From: Gammaproteobacteria bacterium
GTDB taxonomy: Bacteria > Pseudomonadota > Gammaproteobacteria > GCA-001735895
Length of the DNA: 64,000 nucleotides
Reading direction: 5' to 3'
Assembly: GCA_029862005.1 (NCBI GenBank)
Contig: JAOTYD010000001.1
Location: forward strand, 248,001 to 312,000
Program-made: the position numbers and the translations under genes
Notes under the pieces: model-generated
What the model was told of the DNA's origin: nothing
What the model saw: the letters and a program-made list of their open reading frames with translations, nothing else
Databases searched by the model: none
In this document: piece after piece, positions 4,552 through 24,641 of the stretch
How positions within the stretch are numbered: the stretch's first letter is position 1
Layout: each line of letters starts with the position of its first letter

Positions 4552-4937
4552 AGAAAATATTAATTGCAGACGATGAGCCGCATGTGCTGCGGGTGCTGAA
4601 ACTCTCGCTCGAGAAAGAGGGCTACGCGGTGGAAACCTGTGCCAACGGCAAGGAAGCTCTGACCCGGCTCGAACAGGAACATCCCGATATCCTGATTACC
4701 GATATCCAGATGCCGCTGATGACCGGCGAGGAATTATGCCAACACATCGTGCAGGATATGCCTGAGCGCAATTTCCTGATTTTCGTGTTGACCTCGCGCA
4801 CTGAAATCGAGCACCGCGAGTGGTCACGCAATATCCACAACTTATCGTTTCTCGAAAAACCGGTCAGCATTCGCAACCTGCTGGAAAAGATTGATGGCTA
4901 CTTTAATTCGACGACCGATAGCTGGAGAGTGTCCTGA
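4548..4937 (+). CDS. single-domain (CheY-like) response regulator
   Basis: The 129-residue protein is a receiver domain with no attached output domain. Conserved residues are the acidic pair in IADDEP (Asp8, Asp9), the phosphorylation site Asp52 in ITDIQMP, Thr82 in VLTSRTE, and Lys104 in LEKPVS. The start overlaps the kinase stop (ATGA) and the stop overlaps the next start (TGATG), so kinase, regulator and GGDEF/EAL gene are translationally coupled. Without a DNA-binding or enzyme domain, the phosphorylated form should act by protein-protein contact. The adjacent GGDEF/EAL protein and the STAS-bearing ATPase are the nearest candidate partners, which is inference from context. Confidence 0.9.
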   Translation: MKKILIADDEPHVLRVLKLSLEKEGYAVETCANGKEALTRLEQEHPDILITDIQMPLMTGEELCQHIVQDMPERNFLIFVLTSRTEIEHREWSRNIHNLSFLEKPVSIRNLLEKIDGYFNSTTDSWRVS

Positions 4938-7147: not shown

Positions 7148-9229
7148 GTGTCCGATGCGAATGTAGTCAGCATTGAAGACGGCTTAAGCCCGGGAACGGT
7201 CACTAAAAACCGCGTCGGGGCGATGACTCACCTGTTCCCGCGCGGAAATCTGACTGATCCCGAATTGCTCGACGCATTAAGTGCTGCGGTCGACGAAAGC
7301 ATCGCCAGCCAGGAAGTGCAGTTGATCATCGACATGGTGAGCGTATCCCTGGTTAATAGCAAAGCCCTCGAAATCCTGTTTGACCTGCGCCAGGACCTGG
7401 TCAGGGCCGGTGGCTGGTTGAAAGTTACCAATGCCAAGCCGCTGATACGAGACATATTCCTGGTCACCGGTCTGGACCAGGTCATCGATATCGTCAACAG
7501 TTTCAATATCGATAAAACCGAGGTGGCCAGGCCTAAAACGACCAGCAGCGAGGGTGTACGCATCGGTGATCTGCTGGTTAACAAGGGACTGCTATCCAAG
7601 GAGAAAGTCGAAGAGGCGATCGTACTGCAGAAAAAAAGCGGCAAGCGCCTGGGCCAGATTATCGTCAGCAAAGGCTGGGTCAGCGAAGACGTTTTTCTGA
7701 CCGCGCTCGGTGAACAGCTGGGAATTCCCCATATCGTGATGCGCCAGGGGCTGGTCGATCAGGACGTATTTAATCAGCTCGAACTCGAGGTATCGCAGAG
7801 GCTCAAGGTGGTGCCGATGTTCCTCGTGCACGGCGAGCTTACGTTGGCGACATCGGATCCACAGGCCATCGCCAGCTTCAGCGAAATCGAAGAGAAGTTG
7901 AACTGCAAGATCCGTCCGGTACTGGTGCGTAAAAGCGACATCATCAAGACCCTTAACGAAGCGGGATCCGATAATATCTACGGCGCCGAAATCATCGAGG
8001 ATCTCGAAGACGATTTCGAGTTTATCGACAACGCGCCGCCGGATGATTATACCGGGATCGATGAGCTGGCGGCGGGCAGCCCGGTCATCAACATGGTGAA
8101 CTCGATTATTCAGCGCGCGGTCCACGACAAGGTCAGCGATATCCACATCGAACCGTCGCAAAAAAAATGCCGCGTGCGCTTTCGCATCGATGGCCTGCTC
8201 TACGAAGTCATGACGCCGCGTATCGATTTGCACCCGGCGTTGGTATCGCGCCTCAAAGTCATGGCCAATCTCGATATCGCCGAACGTCGAATGCCACAGG
8301 ACGGCCGCATCCAGGTGCATACCCAGGGTCGTTCGGTCGACCTGCGTTTCAGCTCGCTGCCCGGGCTGCACGGGGAAAAAGTGGTGTTGCGGGTACTGGA
8401 CAAGAACCAGTCAATCCTCGACATTGAAAAACTCGGCATGCAAGAGCCCAATGTCGTCACCTACAAGCGCCTACTGGATCGCAGTTACGGCCTGATCCTC
8501 GTCACCGGGCCAACCGGTAGCGGTAAAACCACGAGCCTGTACTCGGCGATCAATTATCTCAACAGTCTCGAGAAAAATATCGTCACGATTGAGGACCCGG
8601 TCGAGTACCAGCTTGATATCGTTAATCAGAACCCGGTGCGCGAAAACATCGGCCTGAGCTTCGCCAAGATGCTCAAGCACGTGCTGCGCCAGGACCCCGA
8701 CGTAGTCATGGTCGGTGAAATACGCGAACGTGAAACCGCGGAGATCGCGGTGCAGGCAGCGCTGACCGGGCACCTGGTGCTGTCCACGCTGCACACCAAC
8801 GACAGTATCGGCGCGGTCACACGCATGATCGACATGGGGGTAGAACCCTACCTGCTGTCCTCGGCCCTGATCGGCGTAGTCGCGCAGCGCCTGGTGCGCT
8901 CGATCTGCCCCAATTGCAAGACCGAGTTTCTGGCGAGCCCCGAGATGATCGAGAAATACGGCTGGCAGGACCAGGGCAAGGTGCGCCTGTCCAAGGGCCG
9001 CGGCTGTGCCGAATGCTACGATGCCGGCTATCGAGGGCGCATGGGCATCCACGAAATTATCGAAACCAATCCCGAGCTGCAGCGCCTGATCATCGCCAAT
9101 GCGTCGCGCGATGAACTCACTGATTATCTGAACCAGCACGAGATCAAGCTGCTATTCGACGATGGCATCGATCGCGTGCGCGAAGGCCAGACCACGATCG
9201 AAGAAATCTGGCGCGCGGTCAATAGTTAG
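7148..9229 (+). CDS. STAS-GspE/PilB-type assembly ATPase
   Basis: This 693-residue hexameric secretion/pilus ATPase starts at a GTG. Residues about 20-115 look like a STAS domain (LIIDMVSVSLVNSKALEIL, then VTGLDQVIDIV), which is not part of ordinary GspE or PilB. Residues about 140-290 match the MshEN/T2SSE N-terminal domain (IGDLLVNKGLLSKEKVEEAI and KRLGQIIVSKGWVSE), a domain known to bind c-di-GMP in MshE. The motor domain has Walker A GPTGSGKTT near residue 453, an Asp-box, Walker B (DVVMVGEIRE) and two zinc-binding Cys pairs (CPNC and CAEC). It should power subunit assembly at the inner membrane with the GspF/PilC protein encoded 15 bases downstream. Confidence 0.92.
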   Translation: MSDANVVSIEDGLSPGTVTKNRVGAMTHLFPRGNLTDPELLDALSAAVDESIASQEVQLIIDMVSVSLVNSKALEILFDLRQDLVRAGGWLKVTNAKPLIRDIFLVTGLDQVIDIVNSFNIDKTEVARPKTTSSEGVRIGDLLVNKGLLSKEKVEEAIVLQKKSGKRLGQIIVSKGWVSEDVFLTALGEQLGIPHIVMRQGLVDQDVFNQLELEVSQRLKVVPMFLVHGELTLATSDPQAIASFSEIEEKLNCKIRPVLVRKSDIIKTLNEAGSDNIYGAEIIEDLEDDFEFIDNAPPDDYTGIDELAAGSPVINMVNSIIQRAVHDKVSDIHIEPSQKKCRVRFRIDGLLYEVMTPRIDLHPALVSRLKVMANLDIAERRMPQDGRIQVHTQGRSVDLRFSSLPGLHGEKVVLRVLDKNQSILDIEKLGMQEPNVVTYKRLLDRSYGLILVTGPTGSGKTTSLYSAINYLNSLEKNIVTIEDPVEYQLDIVNQNPVRENIGLSFAKMLKHVLRQDPDVVMVGEIRERETAEIAVQAALTGHLVLSTLHTNDSIGAVTRMIDMGVEPYLLSSALIGVVAQRLVRSICPNCKTEFLASPEMIEKYGWQDQGKVRLSKGRGCAECYDAGYRGRMGIHEIIETNPELQRLIIANASRDELTDYLNQHEIKLLFDDGIDRVREGQTTIEEIWRAVNS

Positions 9230-9244
9230 GGACCCGGATGAAGC

Positions 9245-10366
9245 ATGGCGATTAACACCAAACAGCACACGATCGTGGCGCAGGCATCGACACCGACACC
9301 CGCATCGGTGCCAAAATTTCAGCTCAGGCAGGCGGTCGGTGACAAGGAGCGTCGCTTCTTCACCGAGCAAATGTCGTTATTGCTGGAGACCGGCACTCCA
9401 CTACAGGCGAGCCTGCAGGCCATGAAAAAGCAGGTTGACAACCCGGCGATGCTCGAACTACTCGATCAACTCATCGAAGATATCGGCCAGGGGATGCAGT
9501 TCTCAACTGCGCTGGCCAAACATCCCGCGGTCTTCTCGACCACCTATACCAACCTGGTGGCGGCGAGTGAGGAGGGCGGCTTCATGCACGAAGTGCTGCG
9601 ACAGTTGCTGGCTCTGGATGAGAAACGCGAAGAGTTGCGCAAGACCATGGTTTCAGCGTTGTCATACCCGGTATTTCTGCTGGTATTTGCATTAGCCGTG
9701 GTCGTGTTCGTACTGGTGGTGGTGTTTCCAAAATTCGCCGACCTGTTTTCGCAAATCCAGGATCAATTACCGGTCACCACCAAATACCTGATGGCAACCA
9801 GCAACGTGTTGAAAGATCACTGGATCGAGTTGACGATCGGTCTGGTGGTGTCGATTAGTGGCTTCAAGTTCTGGTCCAAAACCGAAAATGGCATCCGCAA
9901 GCTCGACTGGGCCAAATTAAATTTCCCGCTGATACGGCACATATTCGTCCAGCTTTACCTGGTTAACACGATGCGGGTATTGAGCATGTCGCTCGGCAAC
10001 GGCGTCGGCATGATGGATTCGCTGCATGCCTGCAAGTTTGTCGTCAAAAACAGCTTGTTCCAGGACTTTATCGGGCAGGTCGAAAACCAGGTCGAAACCG
10101 GCGCCGGCATCGCCGCGGGTTTTCAGAACATCAGCTTCATTCCGCCGATCGTGGAACAGATGATCAGTACCGGCGAAGAAACCGGAAATTTACCTAAAGT
10201 TATGGGCCGCCTGGCCGATTATTTTGAAGGCGAGCTAGCAAGCAAGCTGCAAACCCTGTCACGACTTGCTGAACCAGTGATGTTGCTGATCATGGGGGGT
10301 GTCGTGGGCTTGATTGTCAGTTCGCTGATTTTACCGATTTTCAAGCTGACGCGGGTCGTTGGCTGA
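9245..10366 (+). CDS. GspF/PilC inner-membrane platform protein
   Basis: The 373-residue protein contains two T2SSF domains: about 50-175, opening with the FTEQMSLLLETGTPL motif, and about 245-365, with STGEETGNLPKVM. Three membrane helices sit at about 140-162, 190-212 and 340-362. It anchors the ATPase and feeds (pseudo)pilins into the growing fibre. Length is slightly shorter than typical PilC (about 400). The gene follows the ATPase by 15 bases and is separated from the pilin genes by a 119-base gap, long enough for a separate pilin promoter, although none is clear. Confidence 0.92.
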   Translation: MAINTKQHTIVAQASTPTPASVPKFQLRQAVGDKERRFFTEQMSLLLETGTPLQASLQAMKKQVDNPAMLELLDQLIEDIGQGMQFSTALAKHPAVFSTTYTNLVAASEEGGFMHEVLRQLLALDEKREELRKTMVSALSYPVFLLVFALAVVVFVLVVVFPKFADLFSQIQDQLPVTTKYLMATSNVLKDHWIELTIGLVVSISGFKFWSKTENGIRKLDWAKLNFPLIRHIFVQLYLVNTMRVLSMSLGNGVGMMDSLHACKFVVKNSLFQDFIGQVENQVETGAGIAAGFQNISFIPPIVEQMISTGEETGNLPKVMGRLADYFEGELASKLQTLSRLAEPVMLLIMGGVVGLIVSSLILPIFKLTRVVG

Positions 10367-10485
10367 GGAAAAGCGATAGTTAATGTTAATTGAATCACGG
10401 TTTTCTGCGATACAGGCAAATATTTAAAATATCGTGACTATACTCAAAAAAGTTAGATTTACGTGAATTATAAAGGGTGAGAGAA

Positions 10486-11061
10486 ATGCAACCAATCCGC
10501 AACACAATTCAGAAGGGATTTACCCTCGTCGAACTGTTGATCGTGGTTATCATACTGGCGCTGCTGGCGGCAATCGTGGTGCCGCAATTCGCTTCATCAA
10601 CCGATGATGCCAGATTGGCGTCGCTGGATACCACGTTGGGTAACGTGCGCTCGGCGATAGACCTGTATTTTCAACAACACGGAGAATATCCCGGCGAACT
10701 CACTGCGGTCGATGCGGCCTGTACGGGCACCGATGGTACTGGTACCGGTGGCGCAGGTGCGCAGGGAGCACAGGCTTTCCTTGATCAACTCAGCCTGTAT
10801 ACCGATGCTGAAGGTGGTGCCTGTAGTATCGCCGATGCCAATTTCCAATTTGGTCCGTACCTGAAGAAAAATACGCTGCCTGCAAATCCGATTACCGGCG
10901 TGGCCACGCTTGTAGTTGTTAACGATGGCGACCTGGTGATGCCCGGAGATGGTGCCAATGGCGGCTGGAAATACGATATCCTGGTCGGCAAGTTTATTGC
11001 CAACGATACCACCGACATCGATGGTGCAGGCCCAGGTACGGAAACTTACGATCAGCGCTAG
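10486..11061 (+). CDS. major (pseudo)pilin, GspG-like
   Basis: The 191-residue prepilin has a class III signal: a short basic leader ending QKG, cut before FTLVELLIV, with Glu5 in place and a 20-residue hydrophobic helix. ATG 10486 is favoured over GTG 10477 because AAAGGGTGAG directly precedes it. The C-terminal part holds a GspG-like order (LGNVRSAIDLYFQQHGEYPG, then a disulfide-capable Cys pair) and a Gly/Thr-rich loop. It is the first of five tandem pilin-like genes arranged like gspG-H-I-J-K, so it is taken as the main fibre subunit. A prepilin peptidase must be supplied from elsewhere. Confidence 0.88.
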   Translation: MQPIRNTIQKGFTLVELLIVVIILALLAAIVVPQFASSTDDARLASLDTTLGNVRSAIDLYFQQHGEYPGELTAVDAACTGTDGTGTGGAGAQGAQAFLDQLSLYTDAEGGACSIADANFQFGPYLKKNTLPANPITGVATLVVVNDGDLVMPGDGANGGWKYDILVGKFIANDTTDIDGAGPGTETYDQR

Positions 11062-11072
11062 GTTTCAACAGT

Positions 11073-11657
11073 GTGTACCGCGAGCAAAATCCTAAGATTA
11101 AACTGTATCAAAAGCAGGCTGGTTTCAGCCTGCTGGAAATTTCCATTGTAGTACTCGTTCTGGGAATCATGGCCATCGTCGTGATCCCCGATTCTTCTCC
11201 CACCAATCAGCAGAAACTCGATCTCGCCGCAGAACAGATTGCGCAGGCGTTGCGCTTTGCACACAGCGAAGCATTGCGCACTGGTGAACATCACGGCGTT
11301 ACCATCAGCCAGGTCACGCAGACCATCACGGTAAAGAAATGGGACCTGACCACGGACCCGGTCAGCACCGAGCTGGTGCCGTACCATCCGGTCGACAAGC
11401 AAAGCTTCGTCTTCGATGCCGATACCATGAGCCTCGCCCCGGGCGTATCGATTATCAACAGCAGCGATATTTTCAATTACGTGACAATCGGCCGTCGACG
11501 CAGCCTGATTTTCGATCCTGAGGGCGTGCCGGTATGGGTGCTCGGTTCTGACGATAGCATCTACCGGTTACTCGACGGGATAGTCGAACTCAGTAATGGT
11601 CAGAATCAGCGCAATATTGCAGTCGCACCGCTAACCGGCCGGGTGACGGTGCAATGA
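11073..11657 (+). CDS. minor pseudopilin, GspH/FimT-like
   Basis: This 194-residue prepilin starts at GTG, with leader ...QKQAG cut before FSLLEISIVVLVLG and Glu5 present. The soluble part is GspH/FimT-like: LDLAAEQIAQALRFAHSEALRTGEHHGVTI is the typical helix-to-sheet junction of that family. It lies 11 bases after the GspG-like gene and overlaps the next gene by 4 bases. It probably helps initiate the fibre with the I, J and K proteins. Confidence 0.82.
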   Translation: MYREQNPKIKLYQKQAGFSLLEISIVVLVLGIMAIVVIPDSSPTNQQKLDLAAEQIAQALRFAHSEALRTGEHHGVTISQVTQTITVKKWDLTTDPVSTELVPYHPVDKQSFVFDADTMSLAPGVSIINSSDIFNYVTIGRRRSLIFDPEGVPVWVLGSDDSIYRLLDGIVELSNGQNQRNIAVAPLTGRVTVQ

Positions 11658-12076
11658 AACATCGGCAAGCGGGTTTTTCCTACATGGAACTGCTGATCGC
11701 GACCCTGCTGATCGTGATTATGCTGGTGCCGGCGCTGGATGCGATGCAAAGCGGCATCCAGGGTAGTGGTATCCATACCCAACTCGCCCAGAACCAGTAT
11801 CGAATGATCTCAAAGATGGAACAGACCCTGGCGTTGCCGTTTAGCGAACTGCTGACGCAGGCCGACCTGGTTGCCGACCCGACCGTACTGATACCCGCAC
11901 CTTATTCCGATAGCGCGGGTACCGAGTCACGCCGCTTGGTATTTCTGGCACGCTACGATGGCGATAACGCCGATGCCGATGACGATCCGTTTACCGGCAT
12001 CGATGCGGGACTTTTGTGGGTGCGGGTAACCATCGAAGATAGTCCACGCGCACTGGAGACCGTGATCGTTGAATAG
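11654..12076 (+). CDS. minor pseudopilin, GspI-position
   Basis: A small 140-residue prepilin with a short leader (MKHRQAG) cut before FSYMELLIATLLIVIM; Glu5 is present. The rest is short and poorly conserved, with DGDNADADDDPF as an acidic patch near residues 108-119 that may bind calcium. Overlaps with both neighbours (4 and 8 bases) make the five pilin genes one translational unit. Assignment to GspI rests mainly on gene order and size. Confidence 0.75.
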   Translation: MKHRQAGFSYMELLIATLLIVIMLVPALDAMQSGIQGSGIHTQLAQNQYRMISKMEQTLALPFSELLTQADLVADPTVLIPAPYSDSAGTESRRLVFLARYDGDNADADDDPFTGIDAGLLWVRVTIEDSPRALETVIVE

Positions 12077-13088
12077 CTTCCCACCAACCTGGTCGTCACC
12101 AGGGTTGCTCTCCAGCCGCGACGGTTTTACCTACGTCGAACTGATGATTGCGCTCGCGATCGCGTCGCTGATTATTCTCGGTCTCACTGGCGTGGTCAAC
12201 CAGGCGCTGCAGTCGCAGGATGCCGTCTCGGAAACCAATCAGCTGACGCGCGATGCGCGCTTCGCGATGCAGCGCATGCTGCGCACGGTTGCCCATTCGC
12301 GTCGCTTGTTGCTCCCATTACGGGATAAACCGGCATCCAACTGGCCGGAAAATATCCGTGAGCAAACCGTGCCGCCGTCGCCACCGATCGGTGATAGCAC
12401 GCTCGCGACCGCGGTGCTCGCGGTGACGCTGCCGGCTTATGTCGACCTGGACAATGACGGCTTCCCGGATGCCGACGACGATCGGGATGGGCAAATCGAT
12501 GAGGACTTGCCTAACGACAATCAGCACGATTTCTTCCCCGGCATTATGCTGATCGACGACGATGGCGATGGTCAGGTCGATGAGAACCCCTCCTTCTGGT
12601 GGGATGATGACGAAACCAACGCGATTTACAACGAGGATCCGCTCAATGGTATCGATGACGAGGGTGATAATAACGTCGATGAAGATACAGCGAGCGACCA
12701 GAATGGTGATGGTTGTCCTGGAACATGCGGAGTCGATGACGATGGAGACGGGGCAATAGATGAAGGCAGCAACGATGACGATGATGAGGATGGAAATACT
12801 TTCGACGATCCCTATGACCCGGTCGTCTTTTACCTGAGCAGTGGGTCTCTGGTCGAACGCATGCCGGCACCCTGGGATACAGACGGTATCAGCGTGCCCG
12901 ATGGCCCGGTCGATGGTCGTGATTTCATCGAATCGGTGATTGCCGAAAATGTGACCCGCTTTCGCGTCGAGCGCGTGGATAACAGTAGTGCGATCGAAAT
13001 CATCGACCTCACGCTCGAACTCACCAGTCCGATCACCGGCGAAAGCGTGAGCCTGCAGAGCCAGGTACGGCTCGGGGGTGCGTTGTGA
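12069..13088 (+). CDS. minor pseudopilin, GspJ-like, with Asp-rich calcium-loop insertion
   Basis: This 339-residue prepilin uses a TTG start inside the end of the previous gene. The leader ends SSRDG, then FTYVELMIALAIAS with Glu5. Residues about 45-95 match GspJ (TRDARFAMQRMLRTVAHS). Residues about 125-249 are then a very acidic insert with at least five DxDxDG-type loops, for example DLDNDGFPDADDD, DDDGDGQVDE, DQNGDG and DDDGDGAIDE. These resemble thrombospondin type 3 or dockerin calcium loops. The J-like fold seems to resume after 250 (VVFYLSSGSLVER...). An ordinary GspJ is about 200 residues, so the insert explains the extra length. The insert likely makes fibre-tip assembly or stability calcium dependent. 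Confidence 0.8.
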   Translation: MNSFPPTWSSPGLLSSRDGFTYVELMIALAIASLIILGLTGVVNQALQSQDAVSETNQLTRDARFAMQRMLRTVAHSRRLLLPLRDKPASNWPENIREQTVPPSPPIGDSTLATAVLAVTLPAYVDLDNDGFPDADDDRDGQIDEDLPNDNQHDFFPGIMLIDDDGDGQVDENPSFWWDDDETNAIYNEDPLNGIDDEGDNNVDEDTASDQNGDGCPGTCGVDDDGDGAIDEGSNDDDDEDGNTFDDPYDPVVFYLSSGSLVERMPAPWDTDGISVPDGPVDGRDFIESVIAENVTRFRVERVDNSSAIEIIDLTLELTSPITGESVSLQSQVRLGGAL

Positions 13089-16000
13089 TCCGATTGGCAC
13101 ATCAAGCCGGCTATATCCTGATGCCGGTGATCGTCGTGATCACGCTTGTGGCGGCGATCGCGCTGCTGATGAATACCGAGAGCGCGCTCGAAAGCAATAC
13201 CGCCGGTAGCGAACTCGACGCGCAGCAGGCGCAATACGTCGCCCAGGCGGGGTTGAATAACGCCCTGTGGCTATCCCGGCAACAGGGTTGCAGCGCCTAT
13301 ACCGACCTTACTAACGTCAGTCTCGGCAATGATCAATACACTACTATCCTGACCACCGATCTCGGTACCACGACGAATTACTCGATCCCCGTGGATCAGG
13401 ATGCGTGGATCCGTAGTAGCAATCCAAGCGCCAACAATGCGATTGATGACGGATTACATACCCGGTTCGAGGACGGAGACAGTGAACGATCGTTGTTACG
13501 CTATGACCTGTCGGCATTACCGGCAAATGCCTCGATATTGTCGGCGACAGCGTGGTTTTATGTCACCAATCCCCACCCCGAAGGGCCAATCGATATTCAT
13601 GCATCAACCGCCGACTGGTTGGACACGGACGCTACCTGGAATTCGATGGGTGACAAGATGGATAAGGTGGTTTTAACCAGTATTCCCGCTCAGCCGACTA
13701 CGAATGTCTGGGTATCCGCAAACCTGACTTCACAAGTACAAGCCTGGGTTAATGGACAACCCAATTACGGCATCACGCTGGATTCGAACAGCGAGGGCAG
13801 TTTTGGCGAATACAACAGTACTGAATCGGCAAATGCACCCTATCTCGAAGTGGTCGTCGGTACGTCACCCTCTTCACCGGCCACGTTGAAAGCCGTGGGG
13901 ACGCTTGCCAATGGCGTAACCCGCTCAATTACCCGTGATGATGTTACCCTCTACCAACATCCCCCGACCATGCTTCATTTTCAGCCCGATGCCGTGGAAG
14001 GGGAAGACGCCGAAATCTGGGATCAGGCACCCAACAATAACTACGGCGCCGCGGCTGAAACCTGGGTTTCGTCCGCCAGCAACGATAAGACGCGTTCGCT
14101 GCTGCGCTTCAACCTGGACGCGATACCGGCCGGTGCCAGAATTCTGGGCGCCACGCTGTCGCTTTATCATCGTGACGGTAGCGATTCGAATGTACCGGTT
14201 AGTGCACACCGCATCACCAGTGACTGGATCGAAAGCGAAGTCACCTGGAACAATCGTGATAACACCAATACCTGGAACAATCCCGGCGGTGACTATGATC
14301 CCGATGCCGTTTCCACCACGCTGGTGGATTCTGGCGGAACGCCGGACCCGCAGCGATATGAGTGGGATATCAGCAGCCTGGTACTGGGTTGGATCAATGG
14401 CAGCTATCCAAATTTCGGCGTGGTACTGCTCGTCGAACAAGCCGGCTTTTCGGGCGAGCGCTTCGATACCAGCGATCACGCCGATCCGACCCATCATCCA
14501 CGCCTGAACATCAGTTACACCTGCGCCTGCGGCGAAGCCTGCGTCCCGCCGCAGGGTTCGGGCAAGATCGCGATGATCGGGAATTATTTTTTCGGTAGCC
14601 CAGACCCCAGGGACAGTGAAAAAGAAGCCATAATCGAGTCCTGGGGTTACGAGGTTGATATTCTGGACGACGATACAATCGCCTCCATCGACTTCAGCAA
14701 CTATGACCTGGTGTATATCTCCGAAACGGCTGCGAGCGCAACAGTGGGTACCCAACTGACCAGCCGATCGATCGGAATAGTCAACGAACAGGGTGATCTG
14801 AACGATGAACTCGAACTTGCCGATGCCAAGGCGACCAAGGTTGGTAGCACCATCGATATAGTTGATAACAGTCATTATATAACTGCTCCTTTTGCACCCG
14901 GAACCTTGCCGATTTACTCGGCCGAGATGGAACTTCTGACCGTATCCGGCACCGAAGCCCCGGGACTACAAACCCTGGCCGATGTGGATGCTGTGGGCAG
15001 CCTGGTGCTACTCGATCAGGGTGCAATAACTAGCGGTGGCGGTCCTGCAGCCGGACGTCGGGTCACGTTACCACTGGGCAGGGCTACAAATAGCAACTTC
15101 AACTGGGATCAATTGAATCATAATGGCCGCCTGATCGTGCAACGCGCACTCGCTTGGGGCATCGGCGTCGATATGGTAAGCAGTGGCAATCTGCTGCTGG
15201 TGGTGGTCAATCCTGGCAGCCTGAACACCCAGGAAAGCGCGAAAAAAGCGTTGATCGAATCCTGGGGTTATACCGTCAACCTGATCGACGAATCCGACAG
15301 CCAGGCCAATTTCGATGCGGCCGCCGCCGCTAATGACGTCGCCTATATCCCGCAGGACATCACCTCGTCGAACCTCGGCACCAAGCTGCGCGACGCCACC
15401 ATCGGCGTGGTCAACGAGGAAGGTGAACAAGTTGACGAGCTGGGTATCTCCCAGGACAAGCTGTTCAAGAGCCGGCACGAGATAGACGTCATCGACAACA
15501 CTCACTACATCACCCAGCCTTTTGCATCAGGTCTGCTAACCATTACATCGAGTGACCAGTCGGTGCACATGCTGGCCTCAAACCAGGCCCCCGGTCTCCT
15601 GACGCTGGGGCAGAGCTTCAATACAGGAGCTCTCTGGGAGCCCTCGCTGGCCGTTATAGAGACGGGCGACGATCTCTGGGGCGGTGGCACGGCCGCCGGA
15701 CGCCGCGTCCAGTTGCCCTGGGGCGGTGGCACCTTTGATATAAATCAGCTCACCGACGATGGGCGCACGATCATGCAACGAGCGATCGAGTGGGCCGCTG
15801 GCGCCGGCTGCGCTAGCTCGCCGCCGCTGCTGTTGGTTGTCGGCGACGCGGCTACGCTTTCCAGCAAGGACGCTGGCATGAAGTCCCTGATGGAGTCCTG
15901 GTGTTATAGCGTTACCCTGATCGACGACAGCGACAGCCAGGCCAATTTCGATGCTGCGGCCGCGGCGGTTGACGTTGTCTACGTGTCGGGCACTACCTCG

Positions 16001-17947
16001 GGTCCTGCATTGCTTGATAAGCTGACTGGATCACCGACACCCATCGTTAACGAGATCAACGGCAAGCTGGATAACTTTGGCTTTTCCAGTTCGACCGCCT
16101 CCAGCGTGAGCGCAAGCACTTTTAGTGCCACCGATGCGTCGCACTATATTTCCGAACCCTTCGGAGGTAGTGCGGTTACCGTATTCTCAACCAGTCTAAC
16201 GATGCCGATTCCTGGCGGCACGCTGGCGCCGGACCTGCAGATTGTCGGCGAAACCACCGGTGCGATGCCAGCGCTGGTAACCCTAGAGAACGGCGCGCAA
16301 AGATGGGACGGCAACCCGGCACCGGCGCGACGGGTACACCTGCCGTTCACCAATGCGGAACCGATCCAGCTGACCGCGGACGGGGAAACCCTGATGCAAC
16401 GTGCGATCGAGTGGGCCGTCGGTGTGGGTATGCCACCACCGGGCTATCTCGACGAATTTAACAGCCTGACCTGCGATCCTGCATCGGATTACACCGGCAG
16501 TGACGGACTGCTCGACTGGAGCCCCTGGGCCTGGACCGAGATCAATGAATCCGACGGCCCCTGCGCGGGCCAGATACAAATAGCAACCGATCCCCTGATC
16601 GACGATCCCGGTAGTCATCGATTGCGCGTCGACGGCCAGAATGTGCGCATGTACCGGACGGTCGACCTGACGGTATTGACCAATCCGGAATTGAGCTTTG
16701 ATTACCGGCTGGTGGACTATCCGCTGGACGATTTCATGCGCATTCGCGTCAGCACCAACGGTGGCATCGACTGGACCGAGCTCGACCGCTTCGAAGGTCC
16801 GTTTGACCATACCGAATACCAGTCGGCGAGCTACGATCTGTCACCTTTCGTCGCCGCCGATACCGTCGTCCAGTTCGAGTTCAACGGTGTCAGCGCGATT
16901 CGCCAATCGTACATCGATAACGTGCACATTCAGGAGTCTGTAGCCGGTCCGCCTGCCGGCCCCGGCTACACCGAAATGTACCAGCCGTGGAGTGCGACTA
17001 GCGCAGACACCTGGCAAACCGTCGATCTCGGCGCTTTCGGTGTGCCTGCCGACGCGGTGGTCGAGGTGGCGGTAACAAACATTGATACCGGCAGGGAGAA
17101 TTTTGGCGGGGTGCGTGCGCTCGGTTCGAGCCTGGAGCGGCGTTTCGCGTTGCACGAGGCAGAGAGTGGCGGTGTCGATGCAGTGACCATGCACGTGCAA
17201 ACTGATGCCAGTAGCCAGATTCAACATTACGCCGATCGGACCGACCGGATCAGTTTCATCCTGCTTGGTTACTGGACGGGAGCGAGCTATGTCGAGCGCT
17301 TCGACGCTTTCAAGGCGGGCGCGAATGCAAGCTGGCAGCCACATGACCTTGGGGCGTACGGGGTCGGCCCGAATCAGGTTGCCGAGATCGCGCTCTCGCA
17401 AACCAGCACCTCAATCGAATGGCTGGTCGGAGCGCGGCGGCCCGGTTCCGGCCTGACGCGGCTGCTCCCGCTCCACGAAGCGCAGGGCGGTGGCATAGAC
17501 ATGGTGACCCTGATGGCGGGGACCGACGCGTCGTCGATCGTCGAGGTATATGCCGAGGCGGACTCGGTCGTCGATTTCCACCTGCTCGGCTACTGGAGCA
17601 CACCACCGGGCACTTACACCGAAACCGGGAACGTACATGGGCAGGCAACGTTGGCTGGAAGCTGGGAGACTACCGATTTATCGAGTTTCGGTGTGCCGGC
17701 GGATTCCATCGCACAGTTCGTAATATCGAACGAGAGAGACGCCAATGAAAACCAGATGGGCGTGCGCGCAACCGGATCGACGATACCTAACCGACGCCTC
17801 GACCTGCAGGAAGCGGAATCGGGCGGGGGCGATCTCGGCACCATGCACGTCCAGGTCGATGCCAGCGCGCAGATCCAGTGGGCCGCCGAGTACGGTGCTA
17901 CCGAGGGTTTCTTTTACCCGGTCGGCTGGTGGGTGTTGTCGCCCTAA
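13085..17947 (+). CDS. giant GspK/PilX-position pilin fusion, putative tip adhesin
   Basis: This 1620-residue protein starts at GTG, overlapping the previous gene. Residues 1-30 are a pilin-type leader and helix (HQAG before YILMPVIVVITLV) that lacks Glu5, as GspK does. Residues 36-66 match PilX N-termini (AQQAQYVAQAGLNNALW). Two DNRLRE-like modules follow (about 101-260 and 297-478; SLLRYDLSALPA and SLLRFNLDAIPA). Three copies of an unfamiliar ~200-residue module lie at about 493-693, 702-908 and 915-1115 (IESWGY, IVNE, HYI-PF, AGRRV, MQRAIEWA). A jelly-roll-like segment spans about 1120-1287. Three ~105-residue repeats (LGAFGVPAD, HEAESGG, ending GYW) lie at 1295-1397, 1401-1503 and 1510-1618. 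It likely caps the fibre and contacts a surface or glycan; function is inferred. Confidence 0.8.
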   Translation: MIRLAHQAGYILMPVIVVITLVAAIALLMNTESALESNTAGSELDAQQAQYVAQAGLNNALWLSRQQGCSAYTDLTNVSLGNDQYTTILTTDLGTTTNYSIPVDQDAWIRSSNPSANNAIDDGLHTRFEDGDSERSLLRYDLSALPANASILSATAWFYVTNPHPEGPIDIHASTADWLDTDATWNSMGDKMDKVVLTSIPAQPTTNVWVSANLTSQVQAWVNGQPNYGITLDSNSEGSFGEYNSTESANAPYLEVVVGTSPSSPATLKAVGTLANGVTRSITRDDVTLYQHPPTMLHFQPDAVEGEDAEIWDQAPNNNYGAAAETWVSSASNDKTRSLLRFNLDAIPAGARILGATLSLYHRDGSDSNVPVSAHRITSDWIESEVTWNNRDNTNTWNNPGGDYDPDAVSTTLVDSGGTPDPQRYEWDISSLVLGWINGSYPNFGVVLLVEQAGFSGERFDTSDHADPTHHPRLNISYTCACGEACVPPQGSGKIAMIGNYFFGSPDPRDSEKEAIIESWGYEVDILDDDTIASIDFSNYDLVYISETAASATVGTQLTSRSIGIVNEQGDLNDELELADAKATKVGSTIDIVDNSHYITAPFAPGTLPIYSAEMELLTVSGTEAPGLQTLADVDAVGSLVLLDQGAITSGGGPAAGRRVTLPLGRATNSNFNWDQLNHNGRLIVQRALAWGIGVDMVSSGNLLLVVVNPGSLNTQESAKKALIESWGYTVNLIDESDSQANFDAAAAANDVAYIPQDITSSNLGTKLRDATIGVVNEEGEQVDELGISQDKLFKSRHEIDVIDNTHYITQPFASGLLTITSSDQSVHMLASNQAPGLLTLGQSFNTGALWEPSLAVIETGDDLWGGGTAAGRRVQLPWGGGTFDINQLTDDGRTIMQRAIEWAAGAGCASSPPLLLVVGDAATLSSKDAGMKSLMESWCYSVTLIDDSDSQANFDAAAAAVDVVYVSGTTSGPALLDKLTGSPTPIVNEINGKLDNFGFSSSTASSVSASTFSATDASHYISEPFGGSAVTVFSTSLTMPIPGGTLAPDLQIVGETTGAMPALVTLENGAQRWDGNPAPARRVHLPFTNAEPIQLTADGETLMQRAIEWAVGVGMPPPGYLDEFNSLTCDPASDYTGSDGLLDWSPWAWTEINESDGPCAGQIQIATDPLIDDPGSHRLRVDGQNVRMYRTVDLTVLTNPELSFDYRLVDYPLDDFMRIRVSTNGGIDWTELDRFEGPFDHTEYQSASYDLSPFVAADTVVQFEFNGVSAIRQSYIDNVHIQESVAGPPAGPGYTEMYQPWSATSADTWQTVDLGAFGVPADAVVEVAVTNIDTGRENFGGVRALGSSLERRFALHEAESGGVDAVTMHVQTDASSQIQHYADRTDRISFILLGYWTGASYVERFDAFKAGANASWQPHDLGAYGVGPNQVAEIALSQTSTSIEWLVGARRPGSGLTRLLPLHEAQGGGIDMVTLMAGTDASSIVEVYAEADSVVDFHLLGYWSTPPGTYTETGNVHGQATLAGSWETTDLSSFGVPADSIAQFVISNERDANENQMGVRATGSTIPNRRLDLQEAESGGGDLGTMHVQVDASAQIQWAAEYGATEGFFYPVGWWVLSP

Positions 17948-17997: not shown

Positions 17998-19239
17998 TTG
18001 GTTAAAAATAAGATGAAAATAAATCTACCCAGACAATTACGTTCGGTGTGGTCGAGTACGCGCTATGATTCGCCCGAACTGACCCGCTTCGCGCGACGCA
18101 AAGCGGTTGAAGAGGCGCGCAAAGGGCTTGCCGCGATGAGTATCCTGACGATCGTGATTCTGCTAATCGAAGCCATGCTCTATGTCAGGATCGTGCTCGA
18201 TCCGATGTACCTCTATACCTGCGCAATCCTGGTGTTGTTGTCGCTCAACATGGTATTCGCTGCGCGTGCGGTTAGTGATCCCCAGGCCCTGCATTTACTC
18301 GGTATCACGCTGCTGGTGATTTCCGGCAGCGCCTTCGTATTGCTGGCACACTACCAGCACGTATTTCACCCGATGCTGTTTGCCAGTGTCGCGATGCTGT
18401 TTATCGTTATACCGATGATGTCCTGGGGTCTCGGTGAGGCGCTCGCGGTTACGTTACTGATCTACACCATGTTCACCCTGTCGACGCTCGATGCCCAGTT
18501 TAATTTTGCCGATCAGAGCCTGTGGACCTTGCAGTTCATCATGCTGGGCGCGAGTGCGGTCAGCCTGTCGCTGGTGGTGCGCAACGTCAGGCTTCGCAAA
18601 CATGACGTTGAGACCCAGTTCGACCTGGTGGTCGCGCACGCGCAAATCACGGATTTGTCAAATCGCGATCCATTAACCGGTGCCTGGAATCGACGCTATT
18701 TTGACCTTGAATTCGAGCAATACCTGAAGCAGTGTCGTGAGAATCAAAATCAAATTCATTTCATGCTGCTAGACGTCGACGATTTCAAGCTGATCAACGA
18801 TGAATGCGGGCACGAAAGCGGCGACCGGGTCCTGCAGCATATTGGCCAGGCGTTCAATAGTGTGATTGATAGTAATGGCTCGCTGGTGCGTATGGGGGGT
18901 GACGAATTCGCGGTGATTTTCGCCGATCTCGATCCCAAAGTTATCGCGATACGGGGATTGAAAAATTTCTGCGCTTTAAACGCCGAGAGTAAATACGACC
19001 TGGTGGCACAGGCAAGCCTCAGTATCGGCGTCGCCAGTGTACCGCCCGATTTCGAAGTCAGCTACCGCCAGCTCTACAAACAGGCTGATCTCGCGCTGTA
19101 CCGGGCGAAAAGTCTCAAGGAAGCCAGTCCGACCCCACCGAATATTGTGATTAGCGTGCTGCAAGATCCCAATGACGTTCTCAACAGTACCCAGAGTTTG
19201 TGGACACTCCCGGCAAGCGTTGACAAGGCAGCCAGCTAG
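17998..19239 (+). CDS. membrane-anchored diguanylate cyclase (GGDEF)
   Basis: The N-terminal half (about residues 45-205) holds six hydrophobic helices with no recognised sensor name. A short coiled linker leads to a GGDEF domain at about 220-385. The catalytic motif is intact (RMGGDEF), with DVDDFKLINDECGHESGD for metal and GTP binding. No RxxD inhibition site is seen before the GGDEF motif (the stretch reads IDSNGSLV). It should make c-di-GMP, opposing the EAL protein at 4937-7141. The TTG at 17998 and the ATG at 18013 are both possible starts; neither has a strong ribosome binding site. It sits between the pilin genes and the PilM-secretin genes. Confidence 0.9.
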   Translation: MVKNKMKINLPRQLRSVWSSTRYDSPELTRFARRKAVEEARKGLAAMSILTIVILLIEAMLYVRIVLDPMYLYTCAILVLLSLNMVFAARAVSDPQALHLLGITLLVISGSAFVLLAHYQHVFHPMLFASVAMLFIVIPMMSWGLGEALAVTLLIYTMFTLSTLDAQFNFADQSLWTLQFIMLGASAVSLSLVVRNVRLRKHDVETQFDLVVAHAQITDLSNRDPLTGAWNRRYFDLEFEQYLKQCRENQNQIHFMLLDVDDFKLINDECGHESGDRVLQHIGQAFNSVIDSNGSLVRMGGDEFAVIFADLDPKVIAIRGLKNFCALNAESKYDLVAQASLSIGVASVPPDFEVSYRQLYKQADLALYRAKSLKEASPTPPNIVISVLQDPNDVLNSTQSLWTLPASVDKAAS

Positions 19240-19324: not shown

Positions 19325-20188
19325 ATGAGCGATCAATGGGACAAGGTCACCATCCAGGCCAACTTGATAACGTTGCCGGATATTTACTGGCGGCTCAAGG
19401 AAATCCTCGATAGCCACGACTACTCGATGCAGGACGTGGCCCAGTTAATCGTCTACGATCCTGGCCTGACGGCGCGTTTGCTGCGCATCGTCAATAGTGC
19501 ATATTTCGGCTTTGCCGCAAAAATTGACACGGTAAACCACGCGGTCTCGATTCTCGGGGTACAGCAAATCCGCGATCTCGTGCTGGCAACCTCGATCGCC
19601 GATGCGCTCGGTGATTACGAATGCGAGCATCTCGACATCAGGCAATTCTGGATGCGCAGCGTTTACCGCGCAATTGCCGCGCGTAACCTGGCGGGGGTCT
19701 GCAGCTTGATGGACGGTGAACGCATGTTTGTCGCGGGCTTGCTGAGCGGCATCGGTCATCTGATCATCTACCAGTCGATACCCGTGCTTGCGCAGCAGGC
19801 ACAGCGCGAGGCGAAAGAAAGTGGCAAAGCACTTTACCTGGTTGAACACGACGTGATTGGCTTTGATCACACCCGGGTGGCGAGTGTGCTGATGAAAAAC
19901 TGGAATCTGCCCGACAGCCTGGTGACAGTCGTCGAAAACCACCTGGAACCTGATCCCGATGCCGAGTACCTGCTCGATACGGCGATCGTGCATGTCGCGG
20001 CAAAAATGGCTGATGCTTTTTCCGAGGATCGACCACTGGATGAAGCCCTGGTGGAGACGAATCGTCACGCCTGGGATGCCACCGGGCTCGATATCGCGGG
20101 CTGCGAAGCGGTCGGTGTCGAAGTGGCTAACCAGTTGATCAACGTCGTCAACATGTTATTTCCGAAACTACAGCGCGCGGTGGGTTAA
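19325..20188 (+). CDS. HDOD domain signalling protein
   Basis: The 287-residue protein is almost wholly an HDOD domain. It shows LPDIYWRLKEILD at the start, then DPGLTARLLRIVNSAYFGF and VNHAVSILGVQQIRDLVLATSI, and a central FVAGLLSGIGHLII segment. HDOD proteins are non-enzymatic relatives of HD phosphohydrolases and act as scaffolds in c-di-GMP, motility and stress signalling. No second output domain is attached. Its position between a diguanylate cyclase and pilM suggests a role in regulating the pilus. A 214-base gap follows, in which I see no gene and no firm promoter. Confidence 0.88.
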   Translation: MSDQWDKVTIQANLITLPDIYWRLKEILDSHDYSMQDVAQLIVYDPGLTARLLRIVNSAYFGFAAKIDTVNHAVSILGVQQIRDLVLATSIADALGDYECEHLDIRQFWMRSVYRAIAARNLAGVCSLMDGERMFVAGLLSGIGHLIIYQSIPVLAQQAQREAKESGKALYLVEHDVIGFDHTRVASVLMKNWNLPDSLVTVVENHLEPDPDAEYLLDTAIVHVAAKMADAFSEDRPLDEALVETNRHAWDATGLDIAGCEAVGVEVANQLINVVNMLFPKLQRAVG

Positions 20189-20402: not shown

Positions 20403-21536
20403 ATGACAATCCTAAATAAATTAAGGCGCAAGACCGAATCTCGGGCGAAGCCTGTCGGTCCCGGTATGATTGGGCTCGATATCGGCACCAATCAGATTCA
20501 CATGTGTCAGATTCGTCCACTCCAACATGGATTATTTTCGATCGTTGCCAAGGCCTCAATTGACTACCCGGGTAGCCGACAGGCTCTGCTGGAACAACCC
20601 AGGAAACTCAAGGCGCTAATCGCCCCGGCATTGAAGCAAAAAAAATTCAAGGGTAAACGTGTCGCCGCGCTGATGCCCTGGGAAGAGGTCAAGATAATTC
20701 TGCTGACCTACAAGGCCAATGTTGCCGATGTTGATAGCGAAGTCGTAAAAATGTTAGCCAAACGTATCGATGGATCGATCGATGATTATGTTGTCGACTA
20801 TGTGCCGGTGCGGTCCAACCCGTCTGACGAAGAACATATGGTTGTCGCCACGTTGGCAAAGCGCGAAGCCGTGGATCTGTTATTACAAACACTGATTAGT
20901 TGTGGACTGGAAGTAGATTCACTCGATATCGCACCGACTGCTTTGCGACGTATCGTCAGCGCATTATATACCGGGCACGCCGCTGACAACGTATTGATGA
21001 TCAACACCTATCATGACGAGTCTTACCTGACCGTGATATCGGGGCGCAGGCTGTTGTTCAGCCAATCGGTACCGTTCGGAGAATCACTGTTACTCGATAG
21101 TATCGCCCGCGAACTTGATATATCGGCCGATTCGGCCCGGACATTGATTGCTGATCACGGCCTCGAAAAGCAGGCCCAGTCACGCGCGGTTGGCGCCGAA
21201 ACAGAAACCGATGTATCGACCACGCTACTCGAAATCGTTAAACCCTGTTTTCTTGACTTAATCAATGAGATTAACCGGGTACTGGTATTTACCGCGTCGG
21301 AGACGCATGGCGTTCCGGTGAGCCGGATCTGCCTGCTCGGCAGCATCGCCCAGTGGCCGGGTGCACAACAGGTATTGCTATCGCTGCTCGATTTCGACGC
21401 TCCCGACGGTCAAACCGAGTTCACCCAGGTATTCCAGGATGAAAACGAAAACACGCGGGTGCCCTGGGAAGGTTTGTTCTCCGAAATTTCGATTGCAATG
21501 GGACTCGCGTTGCGGGGTCTGGTGGCGAATGAATGA
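20403..21536 (+). CDS. pilM: PilM/MshI-like pilus assembly ATPase-fold protein
   Basis: The 377-residue protein has the actin-like PilM fold: an ATP phosphate-binding strand (MIGLDIGTNQIHMCQI at about residues 22-37) and a later DNVLMINTYHDESYLTVISG strand pair. It is the cytoplasmic ring protein that binds the PilN N-terminus. Conservation is closer to the MshI or PilM-like group than to classical PilM, judged only by divergence from the usual motifs. The start of the next gene overlaps its stop (ATGAATGA), a sign of tight coupling with the PilN-like gene. Confidence 0.82.
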   Translation: MTILNKLRRKTESRAKPVGPGMIGLDIGTNQIHMCQIRPLQHGLFSIVAKASIDYPGSRQALLEQPRKLKALIAPALKQKKFKGKRVAALMPWEEVKIILLTYKANVADVDSEVVKMLAKRIDGSIDDYVVDYVPVRSNPSDEEHMVVATLAKREAVDLLLQTLISCGLEVDSLDIAPTALRRIVSALYTGHAADNVLMINTYHDESYLTVISGRRLLFSQSVPFGESLLLDSIARELDISADSARTLIADHGLEKQAQSRAVGAETETDVSTTLLEIVKPCFLDLINEINRVLVFTASETHGVPVSRICLLGSIAQWPGAQQVLLSLLDFDAPDGQTEFTQVFQDENENTRVPWEGLFSEISIAMGLALRGLVANE

Positions 21537-22185
21537 AATAGATCTTTTCCCCGAAGACTTTCGCAAGCGCCTGGTATTTATTCGCTGGTTCAGGTTAACC
21601 GGGTACGCGATTGTCGTTTTGTCCGTCGTGTCTTTGGTTGCGTTCGTGCTGTTGCGCGAGGCCAATGCACATATTGACGAGCAGATAAGGCACTTTCAAT
21701 CGCAGCGCGAAATCACCAACGCCAACCGTCGAGAACTGGAACTGCTGAATCAGCAAAAGAGCGATCTGAAGCAGCAGCTGGATTTATTGACCGGCCTGCG
21801 CAGTGGCGCTTCGGCCGAGCAAATGTTCCTGATGATCGATCGGTCGTTGCCCGGGCCCGAAGTGTGGCTGACCAACTGGAAGTTTCGTCGCGCCGGTACT
21901 CCGGTAGAAGATAGCCAGGAAGCGGTCAATACGGGTTACTTTATCGTGATTGCTGACGATAAAAAGGCCAAGCAAGAGGAAACCTGGAAGATCGAGACCA
22001 ATATGTCGATACAGGGGCAGGCCCTGGATCACGTCGCCATGTCGAGATTCGTATTGAACCTGACCCAACAGCCCGAGATCGAGAACGTGCGCATTGTCAA
22101 TTCGCGTCAGACCAAGGTCAACCAGGTCAAGCTGGTTGATTTCAGCCTCGATATTGTGGTCTCCGCAAGACAGGGAAGGAGCTGA
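21529..22185 (+). CDS. pilN: PilN-like inner-membrane alignment protein
   Basis: The start is placed at ATG 21529 (MNEIDLFPEDFRKR), overlapping the pilM stop; the open frame extends further upstream but inside pilM. The N-terminal NEIDLFP segment is the PilM-binding motif of PilN (usually INLLP-like). One transmembrane helix lies at about residues 22-42, then a coiled coil (about 47-82), then a periplasmic ferredoxin-like domain to residue 218. It works with PilO to couple the cytoplasmic ring to the secretin. It overlaps the next gene by one base. Confidence 0.85.
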   Translation: MNEIDLFPEDFRKRLVFIRWFRLTGYAIVVLSVVSLVAFVLLREANAHIDEQIRHFQSQREITNANRRELELLNQQKSDLKQQLDLLTGLRSGASAEQMFLMIDRSLPGPEVWLTNWKFRRAGTPVEDSQEAVNTGYFIVIADDKKAKQEETWKIETNMSIQGQALDHVAMSRFVLNLTQQPEIENVRIVNSRQTKVNQVKLVDFSLDIVVSARQGRS

Positions 22186-22757
22186 TGCAGGATTTTTTTG
22201 AAAACGCACAACCACGCGTCGTGGCGATGATGCTGATCGGCATCGTACTGCTGGTTGCACTGGTTGAGGTAACTTATTTGTTATGGCCACAGTTAAAGAC
22301 TTACCGGGAACTGTCTTCGAGCCATCAGGTTCTGCAACAGGCGGTCAGTAACAATGAAAGTCTCAATAAACAGTTACAAAAAATCGATAGCGAGGTAAAG
22401 GATTTATCACATCAGTTGCACGGCGACATGGCGCAATTGCCGGTCAAGCAAATGGAATCCTTTGTTATCGGACGCCTGCAAAAGGTTTCGTGGGCTACCG
22501 ACGTCGAACTGATGAGCGTACAACCGGGCCGCGGTAGACAGGTGCAGAATTTTCGGGAACGCCTGTTCGAGGTGAAACTGAACGCACGCTACCATGATTT
22601 CTTCGAATGGCTGCAAATTGTCAACCAGGAACTGGGCTACATCGTGGTCAAGAAGTTTGAAATCAATCCGGACGATCGGGATGCGATCAAGAATCCGAAA
22701 CTGGAACTGTCGTTGACCCTGGTATCGTATCGCATGGAGCAAAACTATGACTCCTAG
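22185..22757 (+). CDS. pilO: PilO-like inner-membrane alignment protein
   Basis: The 190-residue bitopic protein has one membrane helix at about residues 12-32 and a periplasmic coiled coil to about 80. A ferredoxin-like C-terminal domain follows (FRERLFEVKLNARYHDFFEWLQIV is a typical PilO stretch). It should form a heterodimer with the PilN-like protein. The gene overlaps both its neighbours (1 and 11 bases). Confidence 0.85.
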   Translation: MQDFFENAQPRVVAMMLIGIVLLVALVEVTYLLWPQLKTYRELSSSHQVLQQAVSNNESLNKQLQKIDSEVKDLSHQLHGDMAQLPVKQMESFVIGRLQKVSWATDVELMSVQPGRGRQVQNFRERLFEVKLNARYHDFFEWLQIVNQELGYIVVKKFEINPDDRDAIKNPKLELSLTLVSYRMEQNYDS

Positions 22758-23109
22758 CCTGCGATTTTTGCTGCCAGCGCTATGCCTGGTTTGTTCTGTT
22801 CCCGCACTTAGCGCAGAACCGTCGCTAATGATCTTACGCAATAATCCGTTCAGTCGTCCCGAGATTGTCAATGCGCCCCCGCCTCAGGTTGAATCTGAAG
22901 TGGTATTGCCACCCGAAGAAGTGAAACTCCGCGTGACCGCAACCATGGTTTCTGAAACTGCGCCGATGGTGGTTGTCGACGGTGAGCTGCTGGCCATCGG
23001 TGAAAAAATAGAGGGTATGAAGTTGATTGCTGTCAGGGAAGGGGAAGCGATATTCACCCGCGCCGGCAAGAAGTTTTCTTTCACGATCGATGACAGGGAA
23101 TCGAACTAG
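22747..23109 (+). CDS. pilP: PilP-like periplasmic protein
   Basis: The 120-residue protein has an N-terminal signal sequence (hydrophobic core at about residues 5-20, likely cut after ALSA) and a proline-rich linker (NAPPPQVESEVVLPPEEV). The short beta domain has TAPMVVVDGELLAIGEKIEGMKLIAVREGEAIFTRAGKK-like spacing typical of PilP and GspC homology regions. No lipobox cysteine follows the signal, unlike many PilP lipoproteins. It would bridge PilNO and the secretin. It ends one base before the secretin start. Confidence 0.75.
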   Translation: MTPSLRFLLPALCLVCSVPALSAEPSLMILRNNPFSRPEIVNAPPPQVESEVVLPPEEVKLRVTATMVSETAPMVVVDGELLAIGEKIEGMKLIAVREGEAIFTRAGKKFSFTIDDRESN

Positions 23110-24514: not shown

Positions 24515-24611
24515 GTCATCCCGATACTATTAAGATTCCCGCTTGCGCAGGAATGACTTAAAAAACTCCGTCATCCCCGCGCAAGCGGCCCCCCCGCGTA
24601 CGCGGGGTTGG
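24515..24611. repeat. REP-like repeat between convergent secretin and xsc genes
   Basis: Two adjacent units lie here. The first, 24515-24559, is bounded by GTCATCCCG and GGAATGAC in opposite orientation. The second, 24566-24611, contains the perfect palindrome CCCCGCGTACGCGGGG (24592-24607). Read on the minus strand, the second unit aligns over about 45 bases with 43846-43892, including GGGGGCCGCTTGCGCGG. The element fills the 152-base gap between two converging genes and may also end transcription from both sides. Confidence 0.7.
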
Positions 24612-24641
24612 CGTCCCGGGATCTTGCAACGGTGGCGTGTT

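Follow-up and report, generated by a model that had tools for sequence, protein, structure and literature searches.

We analysed a window of 64,000 nucleotides from a gammaproteobacterial genome (assembly GCA_029862005.1, contig JAOTYD010000001.1, positions 248,001 to 312,000) and, within it, an operon that carries five pilin-like genes, G, H, I, J and K, the last of which encodes a modular pilin of 1620 residues. It is fairly likely that this operon encodes a type IV filament that is linked to cyclic di-GMP (c-di-GMP) and bears an exchangeable glycan-binding tip. This proposal is carried by the gene content, the synteny, the missing Glu5 of K, the insertion of a module into its pilin sheet and the mosaic of its modules.

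Domain layout and probable tip position of K

K is encoded by an uninterrupted open reading frame (ORF) whose GTG start overlaps the stop of J as GTGA (Table 1). The original prediction, which was made from the nucleotide letters of the window, described two DNRLRE modules, three modules of about 200 residues, a jelly-roll-like segment and three repeats of about 105 residues, and both the profiles and the Smith-Waterman comparisons agree with this layout. The DNRLRE profile NF033679 scored 183.1 bits on K (curated cut-off 34) and the carbohydrate-binding module (CBM) profile CBM96 scored 109.2 bits (cut-off 26), with DNRLRE1 and DNRLRE2 aligning 22 standard deviations (SD) above shuffles. The three ~206-residue modules, A1 to A3, share 33-42% pairwise identity (34-59 SD) and the three ~105-residue repeats, R1 to R3, share 31-48% (16-39 SD); by these comparisons, both sets are genuine internal homologues. 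For the jelly-roll segment, solely sub-threshold matches were obtained, in homologues (Reelin_subrepeat-B, InhA-like_MAM).

One point of the predicted layout had to be corrected: DNRLRE1 was thought to be joined after the pilin N-terminus and is instead placed within the pilin beta-sheet by the alignment and the model. Residues 101-256 form a clean insertion in the alignment with 18-20 relatives, and the shorter relatives L039, L072, L073, L074, L077 and L078 have no insert, the same pilin strands being continuous in them ('...TPTQGSPVSISATGTL...TRAGIAVYQ'). Structure models were built for K residues 1-705 and for the three C-terminal repeats. In the AlphaFold model of residues 1-705 (predicted local distance difference test, pLDDT, 83.9; predicted template modelling score, pTM, 0.79), there is a helix at 12-67 and strands flank the insert, resuming after it at 266-273 and 279-287; the pilin domain was not among the listed fold matches of this model, that list being filled by its other domains. 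Fusions of a pilin and DNRLRE in other genomes, for which a search had been proposed, were found, e.g., in the smallest members of the K family (L077, L078 and L099; 311-333 residues), which consist of the pilin and one DNRLRE module.

K is the sole one among the five window pilins without Glu5, which G, H, I and J have. Glu5 is also missing in every intact N-terminus of the K orthologues (this count excludes L029 and L038, one an overlong upstream frame and the other a truncated protein) and is present in all of the G orthologues. In type 4 filaments, it is a subunit lacking Glu5 that caps the tip complex, and this is where assembly begins (PMC10191384). Because K has no Glu5, is encoded after G-H-I-J and travels with a J that carries calcium motifs, it is the probable tip subunit, and the placement at the fibre tip that was originally put forward is thus supported. 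Moreover, K has a class III signal peptide (AG^YILMPV) followed by a 56-residue pilin helix, and a prepilin peptidase is encoded in the same genome. It is very improbable that K is targeted as a pilin yet shed or anchored to the surface instead of being linked to the fibre: its head is very large for a tip, but the pilin helix and sheet are intact in the orthologues, J and K are strictly paired and syntenic, and Glu5 is missing as in capping pilins.

Predicted folds of the head

In structural alignments of the model, DNRLRE1 matched the chondroitin-sulfate CBM 8wab (Z 22.5), DNRLRE2 matched the alginate CBM96 7vbo (Z 17.8) and A1 matched class I glutamine amidotransferase (GATase) and ThuA-like proteins (Z 13-14.6), with the catalytic cysteine missing. 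There is no cysteine in A1 or A2, and the single cysteine of A3 lies off the nucleophile elbow; judging from these residues, the A modules are non-catalytic. Where CBM96-type modules have been solved, the ligands are acidic polysaccharides (PMC9971899). Since the matches of DNRLRE1, DNRLRE2 and A1 are of fold, they do not prove the ligands.

The AlphaFold model of the three repeats (pLDDT 90.3, pTM 0.91) aligned with the single-chain trimers of APRIL-BAFF, the C1q head, adiponectin and Cbln1 at Z 12.3-13.6 over 305-314 of 334 residues, the next unrelated structural match having a Z of 5.7, and R1-R3 are predicted to form a natural single-chain C1q/TNF-like trimer. Neither K nor the homologues examined had a C1q or TNF Pfam match. 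Against the sequences of solved structures (PDB), the repeats gave chance-level matches only and no relative, and nothing was found for the whole of K. Sequence searches detected no relatives of the repeats in phages, in plasmids or in 368 further genomes sampled from the class, and a viral fold search with them gave broad jelly-roll matches only. The CBM96-fold modules, the lectin swaps described below and the C1q-like terminus support the ligand-binding head that had been predicted.

Module mosaic and probable exchange among the orthologues

The slot at residues 1121-1285 holds a Laminin_G_3 (LamG) lectin in the same-genus orthologues L002, L029, L034, L038 and G013, which have the same three C-terminal repeats, and two LamG domains in L030 and L031 of the same genus. 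Other orthologues carry LamG at other positions or an LDLR-B-type propeller (L037), and the number of A modules per orthologue ranges from 0 to 3. When compared with the nearest orthologue, L002, the machine proteins are 80-96% identical (GspE 96%), PilP 66% and K 56-58%. The nearest relative of the L002 A1 module is that of L029 (91%), of its A2 that of L040 (75%) and of its A3 that of the window (88%). Synonymous differences (pS) along K amount to 0.30 in the helix, 0.72-0.73 in DNRLRE1, A1 and A2, and 0.41 in A3; the contrast is milder at four-fold sites (0.26 to 0.62). Rapid point substitution as the sole cause of the divergence of K was rejected because the synonymous differences jump within the gene, and module exchange is the simplest account of the mosaic. 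The swapped modules in the relatives suggest an interchangeable sticky tip for attachment.

The swaps, the per-module nearest relatives and the resemblance of each single repeat to the trimeric tip of the Bdellovibrio fibre Bd2133 (Foldseek probability 1.00; PMC10769870) would also suit another driver of the mosaic, namely pressure from phages or competitors, in which the exposed tip is a receptor, the swaps provide escape and adhesion is secondary, or a head that recognises other bacteria (kin or prey) like the mosaic adhesive trimer (MAT) fibres of Bdellovibrio. We regard this as improbable, given the acidic polysaccharides that are bound by the solved CBM96-type modules and the lack of any detected sequence relation to phage proteins.

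Two side observations concern the modules. The K orthologue of G166 (L072:9344-12966) is split into two overlapping frames of 834 and 414 residues, which may be a frameshift, phase variation or an assembly error. Relatives of module A (38-52% identity) occur in Phycisphaerae/Planctomycetota contigs (L006:8040-8813, L007:3397-4044 and L008:2455-3114).

Identity of the machine

The ATPase of the operon has an MshEN domain (PF05157, 46.8 against a cut-off of 23.1) with the c-di-GMP motif (NF053729, 62.5 against 38), and as an extension ATPase it is probably switched by c-di-GMP. The GGDEF, EAL and HDOD genes of the operon likewise point to a link of the filament with c-di-GMP. Its scores lay below the cut-offs of both the T2SS, i.e., the type II secretion system (577.4 < 630.25, GspE), and the type IVa pilus, T4aP (571.1 < 675.65, PilB), as did those of the secretin (192.8 < 351.35, GspD; 211.7 < 284.35, PilQ), which was also below the cut-off of the mannose-sensitive haemagglutinin (MSHA) pilus (154.5 < 250.2, MshL). 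Five sampled orthologous ATPases scored in the same band. The cut-off tests work in this lineage, since other ATPases of the same genome pass the GspE, PilB and TfpB cut-offs and two of its secretins pass that of MshL. A tree was built of 22 ATPases, and one of its branches (94/99) separated the orthologues from another five ATPases that the genome encodes; the branches were long and the deeper placement is unsure. A STAS domain ahead of MshEN is an unusual addition to the ATPase (PF01740, 30.0 bits against a cut-off of 22.6).

The main rival to a filament with an adhesive tip is a T2SS-like secretion machine with a short periplasmic pseudopilus, in which K pokes through the secretin and tethers the cell to an enzyme substrate or selects cargo. 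Its G-H-I-J-K pilin set is that of the T2SS, and the homology scores of GspF and GspE are near those of the T2SS; it is nevertheless unlikely in view of the ATPase (577 versus 630) and secretin (193 versus 351) scores, inner-membrane parts of the PilM/PilN/PilO type and not GspL/GspM, a separate ATPase in the genome over the T2SS cut-off (L081) and the absence of a cargo gene within the operon.

Distribution and synteny

The gene order was kept in 22 loci, whole or as far as the contigs reach, with small variations: nearly every locus in view had the G-H-I-J-K and GspE/GspF order, and PilMNOP-secretin was present wherever the contig covered the flank. Within the family, J was found in 12 of 41 genomes and K in the same 12 and one more, whose contig begins inside K, while in the sample of the class a K-like match at E<=1e-15 was obtained in nine further genomes, from eight families in addition to that of the window, and lay in this cluster each time. 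The system is patchy, as J and K occur in so few genomes of the family and of the sampled class, and overall it was seen in about nine families of Gammaproteobacteria and in one genome from a different class. In all loci that include J, this calcium-motif pilin adjoins K; 4-7 DxDxDG-type motifs occur in J at 21 of the 21 orthologous loci with J in view. The genome of the other class, which belongs to the same phylum, has H, I, a 333-residue K that is perhaps near the ancestral form and a calcium-motif J; the order there is H-I-K-J, with K before J (L099:525-2496). Unlike the usual order, a GGDEF-type gene lies between the G- and H-like pilins in G060 (L076:4111-6342).

Discussion

We propose that the product of the operon is a dedicated type IV filament, with an extension ATPase that would be switched by c-di-GMP. 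K would cap an I-J-K tip complex, its helix entering the fibre first, and its head of ~1550 residues would lead out via the secretin. This head would be a string of glycan-binding-type modules (DNRLRE/CBM96, non-catalytic ThuA/GATase-like and an exchangeable lectin-type slot) that ends in three repeats folded as a single-chain C1q/TNF-like trimer; it would attach the cell to polysaccharide surfaces (particles or the polymers of algae or bacteria), and its target may be retuned through module swapping.

Several points weigh against this proposal. The PilX_N profile gave no match on the window K at E<1; the PilX/GspK-type N-terminus that was originally predicted is upheld by the short orthologue L078, which is homologous to K at the N-terminus and scores 35.6 (Pfam cut-off 25.5). 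Cleavage of K by the prepilin peptidase is what we infer from the motif. When the alginate-binding residues (Arg36, the Lys set) were checked, the profile matched 8wab alone and the Arg36 column had no confident placement. The trimer alignment has a root-mean-square deviation of 5.1-5.5 A, on a predicted model. No retraction ATPase was found in the operon, and, as this set of pilins is also that of T2SS pseudopili, a short periplasmic fibre is possible.

Modular pilins occur widely: 264 architectures were known by 2021, and the most extreme multi-domain protein named in that survey has 860 residues (PMC8179133). K resembles PilB and PilC of Streptococcus sanguinis (Raynaud et al. 2021, PMC8179133), in which adhesive modules are grafted on a pilin and are probably exposed at the tip. 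Those pilins are mostly bimodular; K, with 1620 residues, has about nine added modules, of which one is set into the pilin sheet, ends in a predicted pseudo-trimer and shows extensive exchange of modules. As modular pilins are so widespread, we consider K a variant of them, though no paper joining DNRLRE and pilins was found in the open-access literature, most subscription journals being outside that scope. The proposed attachment system that was originally called undescribed is distinct in its machine from the curated T2SS, T4aP and MSHA, while modular tip pilins as such were already known (PMC8179133). K is also similar to GspK of the GspI-GspJ-GspK tip in following G-H-I-J, having no Glu5 and carrying a large insert within the pilin beta-sheet; however, the insert of GspK is an alpha-domain (PMC8179133) and that of K a CBM96 module, which is followed by a head of ~1300 residues, and the machine lies below the T2SS cut-offs.

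DNRLRE1 and DNRLRE2 score above the curated cut-offs and have the fold of alginate- and chondroitin-binding CBMs (PMC9971899), but in K the module sits on a pilin and not on a lyase. With MAT fibres (PMC10769870), K would share an exchangeable tip, a trimeric end of the beta-sandwich and TNF-like kind and the binding of glycans; MAT fibres, however, are true homotrimers and not pilins, whereas the three repeats of K belong to a single chain that is carried by a pilin. The system shares its MshEN c-di-GMP-binding ATPase and PilMNO-type parts with the MSHA pilus, the components of which include MshO, MshP and MshQ. It would also share the role in attachment that MSHA has in Vibrio (PMC7096442). 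It differs from MSHA in its secretin (154 against 250), in that separate MshL-type secretins over the cut-off are encoded in the genome and in the fusion of the adhesive part to a pilin.

More tentatively, it is possible that the system is a separate class of c-di-GMP-controlled type IV filaments, in which a mosaic receptor-binding capping pilin, ending in a natural single-chain C1q/TNF-like trimer, would be to the pilus what tail fibres are to phages and MATs to Bdellovibrio. The proposed filament would be a clear case, in uncultured Gammaproteobacteria, of pilus specificity that is set by an exchangeable string of modules on the capping subunit, and it makes testable what size of folded head passes a secretin and how tips get retuned. 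The single-chain C1q/TNF trimers that the end of K resembles are laboratory constructs, and it would be notable to find a natural one on the fibre of a bacterium.

Table 1. Coordinates of the K modules, the operon genes and the genes of further machines, with the basis of each assignment.
Feature	Coordinates	Strand	Basis
PAS-histidine kinase	2707..4551	+	profile
Response regulator receiver	4548..4937	+	profile
GGDEF-EAL protein	4937..7141	+	profile
Assembly ATPase: STAS, MshEN (c-di-GMP-binding type), T2SSE	7148..9229	+	profile
GspF/PilC platform protein	9245..10366	+	PF00482
G-like pilin, probable main fibre subunit	10477..11061	+	N_methyl, TIGR02532
H-like pilin	11073..11657	+	GspH and N_methyl Pfam
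I-like pilin	11654..12076	+	weak sub-threshold N_methyl; synteny
J-like pilin with D-rich calcium-motif insert	12069..13088	+	motif, conservation
K, 1620-residue modular tip-type pilin	13085..17947	+	ORF and homology
K 1-68: short leader, Gly(-1) motif AG^YILMPV, no Glu5, long N-terminal helix	13085..13288	+	motif, model (helix 12-67), PilX_N in L078
K 69-100: pilin beta-sheet, part one	13289..13384	+	alignment and model
K 101-256: DNRLRE1/CBM96, within pilin sheet	13385..13852	+	profile and structural match (8wab, Z 22.5)
K 257-292: pilin beta-sheet, part two (strands 266-273, 279-287)	13853..13960	+	alignment and model
K 297-482: DNRLRE2/CBM96	13973..14530	+	profile and structural match (7vbo, Z 17.8)
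K 490-695: module A1, class-I-GATase/ThuA-like fold, no cysteine	14552..15169	+	fold match, self-comparison
K 700-908: module A2	15182..15808	+	42% identity to A1
K 912-1116: module A3	15818..16432	+	42% identity to A2
K 1121-1285: jelly-roll-like segment; LamG lectin slot in same-genus orthologues	16445..16939	+	homologue profiles
C-terminal repeat R1	16961..17275	+	self-comparison, model
C-terminal repeat R2	17276..17596	+	self-comparison, model
C-terminal repeat R3; predicted to pack with R1-R2 as single-chain C1q/TNF-like trimer	17597..17944	+	self-comparison, model
GGDEF protein	17998..19239	+	profile
HDOD protein	19325..20188	+	profile
PilM-like	20403..21536	+	profile
PilN-like (real start probably more downstream)	21361..22185	+	profile
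PilO-like	22185..22757	+	profile
PilP/GspB-like	22747..23109	+	sub-threshold
Secretin	23110..24489	+	PF00263
Genes of further MSHA-type machines (L091, L092, L084, L086)	G000:C1:69635-70549, 83262-84119, 73339-74487, 86862-88004		

An ORF at 24543-25439 was judged spurious because it overlaps a thiamine pyrophosphate (TPP) enzyme on the opposite strand. Outside of the window, two further MSHA-type machines lie ~14 kb apart on one contig, each with an ATPase and an MshL-type secretin over the cut-off. Together with T2SS, T4aP and TfpB ATPases, the motors for the assembly of type IV filaments number at least six in this genome, and three PilT-like ones come in addition.

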